64,000 nucleotides of DNA from an uncultured Pelagibacteraceae bacterium. GTDB lineage: Bacteria > Pseudomonadota > Alphaproteobacteria > Pelagibacterales > Pelagibacteraceae. Position 1 is the first letter of the stretch; each line of letters opens with the position of its first letter. This document shows, in pieces, positions 59,032 through 64,000 of the stretch. Under the pieces are notes generated by a model that saw nothing but the letters and a program-made list of their open reading frames with translations, had not been told where the DNA came from and made no database searches. Position numbers and translations under genes: made by a program. The stretch covers positions 1-64,000 of the forward strand of contig CABZCF010000003.1 in the NCBI GenBank assembly GCA_902524235.1, written 5' to 3'.

Positions 59032-59051
59032 ATCATATGCACATTAATTAT

Positions 59052-59127
59052 TGGCAGGAGCGGAGGGAATCGAACCCCCAACCTCCGGTTTTGGAGACCG
59101 GCGCTCTACCAATTGAGCTACACTCCT
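59052..59127 (-). tRNA. tRNA-Trp(CCA)
   Basis: Revcomp AGGAGTGTAGCTCAATTGGTAGAGCGCCGGTCTCCAAAACCGGAGGTTGGGGGTTCGATTCCCTCCGCTCCTGCCA; anticodon CCA; encoded 3' CCA. Confidence 0.97.
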
Positions 59128-59140
59128 TTTATAGTGGAGC

Positions 59141-60331
59141 TTACTCTATAATCTTTGTTACTACTCCAGCTCCTACTGTTCTTCCACCCTCTCTAATTGC
59201 AAAATTTAACTTTTCACTCATAGCTATTGGTGTAATTAGTTTCACGGTAAATTTAGCGTCATCACCTGGCATTACCATTTCAGTTCCTGATGGCAATTCT
59301 ACTTCACCTGTTACATCAGTTGTTCTAAAATAAAATTGTGGTCTATATTTGGTAAAGAAAGGCGTATGTCTGCCACCTTCTTCTTTTTTGAGAACATATG
59401 CTTGCGCCTCAAATTTAGTATGAGGTGTAACAGAACCTGGTTTTGCAAGAACTTGTCCTCTCTCAACGTCTGTTCTTTCAATACCTCTTAATAGTGCACC
59501 AATATTATCTCCCGCTTCACCTGTATCAAGAATTTTTCTAAACATTTCTACACCTGTACAAACGGACTTTTTAGTATCTCTTATACCAACTATCTCAATC
59601 TCTTCTCCTGTCTTCACAACACCTTGCTCTACTCTACCTGTAACAACAGTACCTCTTCCAGAGATAGAAAAAACATCCTCAACTGGCATAAGGAAAGGTT
59701 TATCTTTTGGTCTATCTGGTTGAGGAATATGTTCATCAACAGCTTTCATTAGTTCCATTATTGCATTTTTTCCAACTGCTTCATCTTTCCCTTCAACGGC
59801 TGCTAAGGCTGAGCCTTTGATTATTGGAGTTTTGTCACCCGGAAATTTATATGAATTTAATAAATCTCTAATTTCTTCTTCAACTAATTCAATCATCTCT
59901 TTATCATCCACTTGATCAACTTTATTTAAAAAAACTACAATTGCTGGAACTCCAACCTGTCTTGCAAGAAGAATATGTTCTCTTGTTTGAGGCATAGGAC
60001 CATCTGCAGCATTAACAACTAATATTGCTCCATCCATTTGAGCAGCGCCAGTTATCATATTTTTTACATAATCAGCATGACCCGGGCAATCTACGTGAGC
60101 GTAATGTCTTTTTTCAGTTTCATATTCAACATGAGCTGTTGAAATTGTAATTCCTCTCTCTTTTTCTTCCGGTGCTTTGTCAATTTGATCATAAGCTACA
60201 AATTGTGCTCCTCCAGCTTCAGCTAAAACTTTTGTTATTGCTGCTGTTAGAGTTGTTTTACCATGATCCACATGTCCAATTGTACCAATATTACAATGTG
60301 GTTTACTTCTATTAAATTTTTCCTTCGACAT
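59141..60331 (-). CDS. tuf: Elongation factor Tu
   Basis: [28 protein letters not shown]...[28 protein letters not shown]; 396 aa. Confidence 0.98.
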
Positions 60332-61473: not shown

Positions 61474-61549
61474 GCCCTTGTAGCTCAGTTGGTAGAGCAA
61501 TTGATTTGTAATCAATAGGTCCGCGGTTCGAGTCCGTGCGGGGGCACCA
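61474..61549 (+). tRNA. tRNA-Thr(UGU)
   Basis: GCCCTTGTAGCTCAGTTGGTAGAGCAATTGATTTGTAATCAATAGGTCCGCGGTTCGAGTCCGTGCGGGGGCACCA; anticodon TGT; encoded CCA. Confidence 0.97.
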
Positions 61550-61557
61550 CTAAAAAA

Positions 61558-62592
61558 TTATTCTAAAGCTTTTCCAACAATTGTTGCAGAACCTTCTAAT
61601 CTCTCGATAGACTCAATATAAACCTGTGTTTGACTTTTACCACCAAGTGGTGCCAGTGTGCCTGTACCGGCTTCAAGGTCATGTGCACCCTCAATAATGA
61701 TCTGTCCATTTCCTGTTGATCCAGAAGCATCAACAGTTGTAAATTTCCCGTAGAAAAATAATCTTTTATCTGCATCAGTGTTATTTGTGTCATGGTTATA
61801 CCAGTCCATTAACTCTTGTTTACTTTTACAACCAGTATCGCAAGTGTAGTTAGCTGCAAGTTCAGTTGGTGAAATTTGCATTGATGAATTTACATCTACA
61901 AATTCGTCGAAGTCGGTGTTTCCATCTGACTTTAACCCTCTAACCGTAGATGCTACAACTGGTAGAGAGGTTATACCTGCTGAGCCTGTGTTCCATTCAT
62001 GTTGAACTTGTGATGCACCTTTTAAAGTTATTCTTGTATACATATCGGCACTCATTTCTTTTTTGTTAAAGTTAACATAAACTTTTCCTCTTCCCTCTTG
62101 AACTGCATCTGCAAATACATCTGAAGTAGATGGTTTATTATAAGTTAATCCATTAGACCCAGTCTCAACTCTTTCTAGTGTAAACCAACCTGAGTCATAA
62201 ACAACTACATCTTGGTCTAATGTCATTACATAGTCTTGATCTTTTTCTTCGATGTTATCTTTCATCTTTTCCATTTCTTTAGCAATTTCTTTAGAGTCTG
62301 ATGACACATTAGACAAAGCTGATAAAGCACCCTCGTCGACTTTTAAATCTAATTTTTCAGCATTTTCTTTTATATCTTGTTTTAAATTTGTTGAATTTAT
62401 TAAATTAGATGTAACATTTTGAGAGTTGTTTATAACATTGCTTGAATTAACTACGGAATGACTCATTGAACTGGACATTTGATTTACTATGTTTGTTGTG
62501 GCGGGAGTTGGTGTCGATACCACTGCATAAGAATAGCTAAAATAGGTAGCAATAAATAAAATAGATTTAAATATAATTTTAAAATTTTTCAT
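61558..62592 (-). CDS. Secreted protein of unknown function (344 aa, Asn/Ser-rich N-terminal region)
   Basis: Signal peptide-like MKNFKIIFKSILFIATYFSYSYA, then Asn/Ser/Thr-rich segment and a predicted beta-rich C-terminal half; starts 1 nt from the FecR gene stop. Confidence 0.75.
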   Translation of the reverse strand: MKNFKIIFKSILFIATYFSYSYAVVSTPTPATTNIVNQMSSSMSHSVVNSSNVINNSQNVTSNLINSTNLKQDIKENAEKLDLKVDEGALSALSNVSSDSKEIAKEMEKMKDNIEEKDQDYVMTLDQDVVVYDSGWFTLERVETGSNGLTYNKPSTSDVFADAVQEGRGKVYVNFNKKEMSADMYTRITLKGASQVQHEWNTGSAGITSLPVVASTVRGLKSDGNTDFDEFVDVNSSMQISPTELAANYTCDTGCKSKQELMDWYNHDTNNTDADKRLFFYGKFTTVDASGSTGNGQIIIEGAHDLEAGTGTLAPLGGKSQTQVYIESIERLEGSATIVGKALE

Positions 62593-63162
62593 TTAATTTT
62601 TTATCATTGCTTGAAAACCAGGTTTGGTTATATCAGTCATATTTATTCCGTCTGTAAGTTGAATATTGCCTGGGATCATTCCTAGTGTGTTATTTGGACC
62701 AGGGCCTAATAATAATACTGTACTTTCCTTATCTGAATTTGAAGATACAAGAAATTCTGTCCCTCTTGCACCTAATGTTCCAGCAGGCATTTTAACTTCT
62801 AAGTTATCTGGATTTTTCTTGCTGATTTTACCAGTAATAAACTTTACTGTTCCTGACTTTATATTTGTAACAAAATTTCCATCATCAGTTTTTGGGTCAT
62901 AAACAAAATCATCTATTGTTAATTCAGTATTTTCTCCGACAGTCATTACTGTTTCATCTAAAAATAATATTTGAGCATTAGATTTTGAGCTTACAAATAT
63001 TGTATCACCAAAAAATACTTTAGAACCGTTTATTAATTTTTCATTTTTTTGATTATTTATATCTCCGACAGCAACCCCTATCACTCCTATGAATTCACTA
63101 CTAATAGATTTAGTTATAAAGCTTAAAAAAATAAAAATTGTTAATAAAAATTTTTTAGTCAT
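62593..63162 (-). CDS. FecR-domain secreted protein
   Basis: Signal peptide; GSKVFFGDTIFVSSKSNAQILFLDETVMTVGENTELTIDDFVYDPK...NIKSGTVKFITGKISK..PDNLEVKMPAGTLGARGTEFLVS matches FecR family pattern. Confidence 0.83.
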   Translation of the reverse strand: MTKKFLLTIFIFLSFITKSISSEFIGVIGVAVGDINNQKNEKLINGSKVFFGDTIFVSSKSNAQILFLDETVMTVGENTELTIDDFVYDPKTDDGNFVTNIKSGTVKFITGKISKKNPDNLEVKMPAGTLGARGTEFLVSSNSDKESTVLLLGPGPNNTLGMIPGNIQLTDGINMTDITKPGFQAMIKN

Positions 63163-64000
63163 TAAAATTTAGTCTTTTTGTTATCCCAATTGTTTTAAAT
63201 GCTCTTTTAATTTCGTAGTTGGGTAAGCTAGAATTTACATTAGATTCTCTAAAACTTAAAGTATAAAAGGTTGTATTATCCTTATTTATTTTTCTTAAAA
63301 AAGGTAATATTTGATTGATATCACCTCTCAAAGAAATATTTGTTACTAAACTTCTGTCATTTCTATAACGCAACATTGATATAGCATTATTTTTGGCTTG
63401 ATAAGCATTATATAAATAAGTAGCTGACGCTGACAAAGTTCCAAAAGAAAAAATTCTAGAGGCTCGAAAATTTACACCATTAGACTCGTAACTATGAAAT
63501 TCTTTTGCATGATCTGTTTTGCCATATATTAATTTTGTACTTATTTGTGTTCTATTAGATATGTTATGATTTAGTCTGATTGATGCAGAATAAGCTTCGT
63601 TATTGTTATTATCACCTGCCTCTTTAAACAATTGAATACCACCAACAACAGGATTTGGTCTTGAATGATATCTTGAGTCTGAATAACTCAAAGCATAATT
63701 TAAATTAAATTTATCATTAAAAATATATGTATTATTAATTCCTACCCCTTTTACTTGATAGTCCTCTTGCATTCTATAATTTGGATTATTGAAATAAACA
63801 TATGGTGAAAAATAATGATTTTTATAAGCTTTAAAATAACTTATTGAGCTTGAATATATATCACTCTCACCTTTGTGTTTTTTGTTGTTAGTATTAAAAT
63901 TAGATCCAAGATTTAAATACAAAGAAGAAGTTTGATCTAAAATTCTTCCTATAGTAAGTGAGGTTCCCCTTGTGTAAGTTTTATCGTATTCCATAGTGCT
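63155..64000 (-). CDS. Outer-membrane beta-barrel protein, C-terminal part; possibly surface lipoprotein assembly modifier (SlipAM/DUF560)-like (partial, N-terminus beyond window)
   Basis: Alternating amphipathic strands and aromatic/Phe-rich C-terminal strands (FYTLSFRESNVNSSLPNYEIKRAFKTIGITKRLNF); frame open to window edge; overlaps FecR gene start by 8 nt. Confidence 0.6.
   Translation of the reverse strand, partial: STMEYDKTYTRGTSLTIGRILDQTSSLYLNLGSNFNTNNKKHKGESDIYSSSISYFKAYKNHYFSPYVYFNNPNYRMQEDYQVKGVGINNTYIFNDKFNLNYALSYSDSRYHSRPNPVVGGIQLFKEAGDNNNNEAYSASIRLNHNISNRTQISTKLIYGKTDHAKEFHSYESNGVNFRASRIFSFGTLSASATYLYNAYQAKNNAISMLRYRNDRSLVTNISLRGDINQILPFLRKINKDNTTFYTLSFRESNVNSSLPNYEIKRAFKTIGITKRLNFND

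Follow-up and report, generated by a model that had tools for sequence, protein, structure and literature searches.

A Slam-like outer-membrane barrel and a FecR-domain protein beside CHASE2 enzymes suggest a link between surface display and signalling in SAR11 and other Alphaproteobacteria

Which function might join an outer-membrane barrel, a FecR-domain protein and a secreted protein of no known family in a single operon of a SAR11 bacterium? The window analyzed here is a stretch of 64,000 nucleotides from an uncultured Pelagibacteraceae genome, and three minus-strand ORFs of this kind lie at its edge (Table 1). A sequence-only reading had described them as tightly coupled and had proposed a minimal surface-display unit consisting of an exporter barrel, a FecR-fold partner and the 344-aa protein as cargo. 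The coordinates and junctions of that reading agree with ours: the barrel and FecR ORFs share 8 nt (63155-63162), while the gap between the FecR and 344-aa genes equals 0 nt. It had also taken the barrel gene to be cut by the window edge, and the full gene was found on the same contig with its start at position 64537, outside the window, and a product of 460 aa. The window contains only residues ~180-460 of this product, the TPR-coding part being located outside.

The operon transcript may start further up, because another ORF is located only 44 nt upstream of the barrel gene; this ORF carries a GGDG motif, which is typical of NAD kinase. At the opposite side, a convergent tRNA-Thr gene was found 8 nt from the end of the 344-aa gene (window 61474-61558). 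Past this tRNA gene the gene content varies among the close sisters L096, L097 and L098, and this side of the operon is a possible variable-insertion site. A further ORF at window positions 59037-59333 (+), with the start MHINYWQERRESNPQPPVLETGALPIELHS, is likely spurious, since it overlaps a tRNA-Trp gene on the opposite strand (59052-59127).

Table 1. Features of the operon in window coordinates
Feature	Position	Strand	Basis
TPR + 14-strand outer-membrane barrel (predicted), C-terminal part (residues ~180-460, strands 2-14)	63155..64000	-	AlphaFold, Foldseek, SlipAM profile homology
Periplasmic protein with FecR domain (189 aa); has type I signal peptide, lacks lipobox Cys	62593..63162	-	PF04773, barrel adjacency
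FecR domain, residues 53-149	62716..63006	-	PF04773 match
344-aa secreted FecR partner	61558..62592	-	homologous to C-terminal part of FecR-fused proteins, 15 SAR11 loci
Signal peptide of 344-aa protein, residues 1-24, missing from fused proteins	62521..62592	-	alignment; cleavage position inferred from sequence
C-terminal domain of 344-aa protein, residues ~120-344, predicted beta domain, candidate cargo barrel	61561..62235	-	AlphaFold

The full-length barrel protein carries a signal peptide and a TPR domain. Its predicted architecture comprises TPR-like helices and, after them, 14 long strands (AlphaFold, pLDDT 85), the model having been built from 54 relatives with the L096 protein, a 97% identical orthologue of the window barrel, as the first row. 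A TPR domain with about 14 strands had been named beforehand as support for the likeness to SlipAM (Slam) barrels, and TPR_19 matches were detected in 29 of the 54 family members. With the Pfam profile, the window barrel does not match PF04575 (SlipAM) even at E 10, and its nearest Pfam family is DUF2860, just under the cut-off; however, PF04575 is matched directly by four of the 54 members (best E-value 5e-6). Profile-profile comparison by hhalign aligned the SAR11 barrel family with the SlipAM proteins outside it over 371 columns of the full length at E 4e-16 (prob 98.7), and the barrel portion alone at E 1.4e-12, whereas the reversed, column-shuffled and unrelated autotransporter controls all remained at E >= 0.03. 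Based on these E-values and the negative controls, the barrel family belongs, as judged from sequence profiles, to the SlipAM superfamily, of which it would be a remote but specific branch. The closest solved folds according to Foldseek are the 14-strand OmpG and CymA, with BcsC also among the matches. An assignment to plain porins or to OmpG/CymA was nevertheless rejected, since by sequence profile the barrel is linked with SlipAM but not with the autotransporter control.

The FecR assignment of the second gene was confirmed by a PF04773 match at E 2e-12. Its product has a type I signal peptide and lacks any Cys; no lipobox Cys was found near the N-terminus of either this protein or the 344-aa protein. 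Relatives were collected by a scan of GTDB genomes, which yielded 198 relatives, of which the best 80 loci were kept, nearly all of them named Pelagibacteraceae or Pelagibacter. In 15 SAR11 loci among these best 80 of 198, FecR and the 344-aa protein make up a single polypeptide of 511-534 aa, in which '...GFQAMIQN' runs straight into 'VVS...', with which the mature 344-aa protein begins. Because the junction falls exactly at the mature N-terminus, the split and fused forms differ by the second signal peptide. In the tree, the split forms are placed on deep branches and all 15 fusions within one clade. As the sequences of the fused proteins indicate, FecR and the 344-aa protein form one unit. 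In more distant SAR11 copies FecR is fused to other C-terminal regions. Two further arrangements were noted among the collected loci. The first is a tandem (L127:3183-11996) that begins with a type-2 barrel and its FecR, continues with a CHASE2-SpoIIE gene and ends with a type-1 barrel accompanied by FecR and by two 344-aa protein paralogues. In the second (L087:973-4365, genome G074), the barrel is followed by an Ala/Glu-rich repetitive secreted protein with no recognizable FecR domain, which is cut by the contig end.

The C-terminal region of the 344-aa protein (residues ~120-344) is modeled with about eight main beta strands (AlphaFold, pLDDT mostly 70-95), and known cargo proteins of the type 11 secretion system (T11SS) share a C-terminal eight-strand barrel (PMC8406197). 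Soluble, unlipidated T11SS cargo with an SPI signal is also known (PMC8406197). The 344-aa protein was assigned to no family by a Pfam scan of 33 members, and it gave no significant match to cargo barrels in hhalign comparisons with FecR C-termini or in a PDB profile search, so that a TbpB-type barrel was rejected as a conclusion from sequence. Foldseek placed PsbO at the top and LbpB/TbpB lower, at TM ~0.2, which is too weak for evidence, and no PDB fold was assigned with confidence. A cargo barrel is not apparent in many other FecR partners, namely the K-rich tails of SAR11 type 2. Support for the cargo proposal comes from relatives instead. A profile of the C-terminal domains found on FecR partners in Alphaproteobacteria matches the structures of NHBA (GNA2132) at E 4e-9. 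Sub-cutoff matches were also obtained to the NCBIfam family slam_lipo ('Slam-dependent surface lipoprotein'; one domain, 1e-9) and to TbpB_B_D (two domains, 2e-4 and 4e-4). By these profile matches, several alphaproteobacterial FecR partners have at their C-terminus an NHBA/TbpB-like barrel, which is the fold that Slam cargo adopts. The cargo role proposed earlier is thus backed by the relatives and not by the 344-aa sequence itself, and its C-terminal domain is a candidate cargo barrel.

The gene neighborhoods extend the module beyond the three genes. At the 80 best loci from the 198 relatives, FecR adjoins 79 of 81 barrel copies, and a CHASE2-SpoIIE phosphatase (PF05226 + PF07228) occurs at most two genes away from 46 of the 81; some other loci are cut by contig ends. 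Genes for the barrel, FecR, the 344-aa protein and CHASE2 are all close to one another at L101 and L115, and L099 and L101 carry natural fusions of FecR with the 344-aa protein. In 197 Pelagibacteraceae genomes, the barrel was found in 24, FecR in 27 and both in 22 (Fisher p 3e-22), while CHASE2 co-occurs with the barrel at p 9e-20 and with FecR at p 7e-25, although these p-values overstate independence because the genomes are related. The expected co-occurrence of barrel and FecR genes was observed in Pelagibacteraceae, and neither of the outcomes named beforehand as refutations, a barrel with no SlipAM similarity or a lack of co-occurrence in related genomes, was seen. No sigma factor or FecI partner is present among the operon genes, as had been noticed before, and by gene neighborhood the missing partner of the operon would be CHASE2, not FecI. 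The second type of SAR11 locus is located in a type IV pilus cluster, with genes for a secretin, T2SSE, T2SSF, pilin-like proteins, STAS, HATPase_c_2 and further SpoIIE phosphatases near the barrel. In a sister SAR11 genome (G197:C2:1-45000, L218-L220), genes for STAS, HATPase and three SpoIIE phosphatases lie within a type IV pilus cluster. Many type-2 loci also encode a fusion protein in which an ammonium transporter is joined to a SpoIIE/PP2C phosphatase (L072:3660-5813 (+); PF00909 E 5e-114 and PF07228 E 5e-34), which adjoins the barrel-FecR-CHASE2 genes and, by its domain content, is a candidate ammonium transceptor.

A similar association was observed outside SAR11. Barrel profile matches were found in 54 of 385 alphaproteobacterial genomes. 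Of 40 non-SAR11 barrel loci examined, 29 have FecR, 19 have CHASE2 and 33 have either of them within 3.5 kb. All three CHASE2 proteins outside SAR11 that were checked by Pfam carry a nucleotide cyclase. When SlipAM-positive proteins were drawn from 190 alphaproteobacterial genomes and split by the SAR11-barrel profile, six scored 45-79 bits and the rest at most 16 bits. FecR and/or CHASE2 neighbors occurred in 6/6 of the examined loci of the barrel family but in 0/11 of the others.

Taken at its broadest, the explanation that we judge somewhat probable is that the operon is an instance of a module spread across the class Alphaproteobacteria, which couples a Slam/type 11-like outer-membrane protein to envelope signaling. 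The TPR-barrel is predicted to reside in the outer membrane, its TPR domain facing the periplasm, and FecR and its C-terminal partner, which many relatives make as a single polypeptide but which are two exported polypeptides here, would form a periplasmic complex, as suggested by the fusion. The barrel may be required for display of the FecR partner, and FecR may contact an inner-membrane CHASE2 receptor and report the state of the complex to it. In other Alphaproteobacteria the CHASE2 output would be a nucleotide cyclase. In SAR11 it would be a SpoIIE-type phosphatase, and gene order suggests that the signal likely passes through the STAS and HATPase partner-switching genes of the type IV pilus cluster and may reach the pili. 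The display unit suggested by the sequence-only reading is retained here in its SlipAM homology, the unity of FecR with the 344-aa protein and the cargo-type barrels of relatives, but not as a stand-alone minimal unit, since the module goes with CHASE2 receptors. A more specific version, which we put forward tentatively, is that this Slam/type 11 branch is part of a transmembrane signaling device. In such a device CHASE2 would read the surface state of a tethered FecR-cargo protein that is threaded as far as the outer membrane or across it. The SAR11 read-out would fall to a partner-switching phosphatase encoded among the type IV pilus genes, which would make the whole a circuit for surface sensing.

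The same neighbors could also serve a barrel that is a receptor and not an exporter, with a ligand bound on its loops, the periplasmic TPR touching FecR and FecR switching the CHASE2 enzyme. This reading has precedents in the outer-membrane beta-barrel NsrA of Sinorhizobium meliloti, on which the perception of signals by way of CHASE2 cyclases depends (PMC7529298, PMC13001267), and in the clustered CHASE2, FecR and TPR genes of Campylobacterota (PMC9239204), and it is equally compatible with the co-occurrence of barrel, FecR and CHASE2. However, it explains neither the SlipAM kinship of the barrel nor the NHBA-type domains on FecR partners, and it gives no reason for the further exported region so often joined to FecR. 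We therefore regard a receptor as unlikely, if less so than the two proposals that follow.

Polysaccharide export through a PgaA/BcsC/EpsL-like TPR-barrel, regulated by FecR-CHASE2, would fit sub-cutoff EpsL/TIGR03016 matches in the last ~100 residues of one alphaproteobacterial barrel relative (E ~5e-8), a weak BcsC match within the TPR of the window barrel and the BcsC structure among the Foldseek matches; some PgaA proteins belong to PF04575 as well, though they are 16-stranded (PMC8406197). The predicted barrel has 14 strands versus 16 in polysaccharide exporters, and the SAR11 loci lack a glycosyltransferase or synthase as a constant neighbor, on which grounds assignment to the PgaA/BcsC class was rejected and the proposal appears improbable. 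It is just as doubtful that the window copy is an orphan paralogue which lacks a functional CHASE2 partner and has kept a residual function or taken on another. Neither CHASE2 nor SpoIIE was found in the assembly of the window genome, and the window operon is located away from the pilus cluster and next to tRNA-Thr. Yet three near-identical sister genomes (barrel 95-97%) carry CHASE2-SpoIIE elsewhere, and in the one read closely it adjoins a second barrel-FecR pair. The 20 kb searched from beside the CHASE2-SpoIIE region of a sister, which are the first 20 kb of G197:C2:1-45000 and include ilvC- and mreB-like ORFs, are absent as a block from the window assembly. The absence of CHASE2 thus points to an assembly gap, because the neighboring block is missing too, and its loss was not accepted as a biological fact.

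Among known systems, Slam proteins (DUF560/T11SS, PF04575) are the nearest to the proposed module, with a TPR and 14-strand outer-membrane barrel, full-length profile homology and exported proteins as neighbors, some of which end in an NHBA/TbpB-type barrel in certain lineages. In contrast, the present family is tied to FecR and CHASE2 instead of TonB/haem genes, comprises putative exporters, and includes a window barrel below Pfam detection. FecR and cyclases are not mentioned in the main text of the T11SS papers (PMC8406197, PMC12282271), nor is CHASE2 in that of the 2025 T11SS survey. CHASE2, FecR and TPR are also grouped in the Campylobacterota cluster of a CHASE2 cyclase, a phosphodiesterase, a FecR outer-membrane protein and a TPR protein (PMC9239204), but no Slam link was reported there and its output is a cyclase rather than the SpoIIE phosphatase of SAR11. 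The BiofilmReg operon of Burkholderia pairs LysM-FecR with a CHASE2 histidine kinase (PMC5192318); it has no outer-membrane barrel or reported Slam link, and its output is the histidine kinase. NsrA of Sinorhizobium meliloti acts upstream of the CHASE2 receptors CyaD1/D2/K (PMC7529298, PMC13001267), whereas its barrel occupies residues 600-1200 of a larger protein, and the likeness is by description, not sequence. FecA-FecR-FecI signaling shares a FecR domain and an outer-membrane barrel. However, the classical system was rejected for this operon, which has no FecI sigma factor or TonB-dependent receptor, has a small exported protein as its FecR, and has a predicted 14-strand barrel with TPR rather than a 22-strand plugged one.

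The module is best filed as a signaling-linked variant of the Slam/type 11 family, and the combination of a Slam-like barrel, FecR and CHASE2 appears to be undescribed in the open-access literature. To our knowledge, the signals recognized by CHASE2 domains are largely unknown, and we know of no cargo for most T11SS clusters. We offer FecR-cargo proteins as possible T11SS substrates and FecR as a possible periplasmic partner of CHASE2. The occurrence of Slam-like barrels and FecR beside CHASE2 enzymes across Alphaproteobacteria suggests that surface display and signaling are connected in a way not described before. SAR11 cells are thought to have few display or signaling systems of this sort. 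In some of them, protein display and envelope signaling would adjoin type IV pilus genes, which, if true, would give these streamlined, free-living ocean bacteria a circuit for sensing surfaces.
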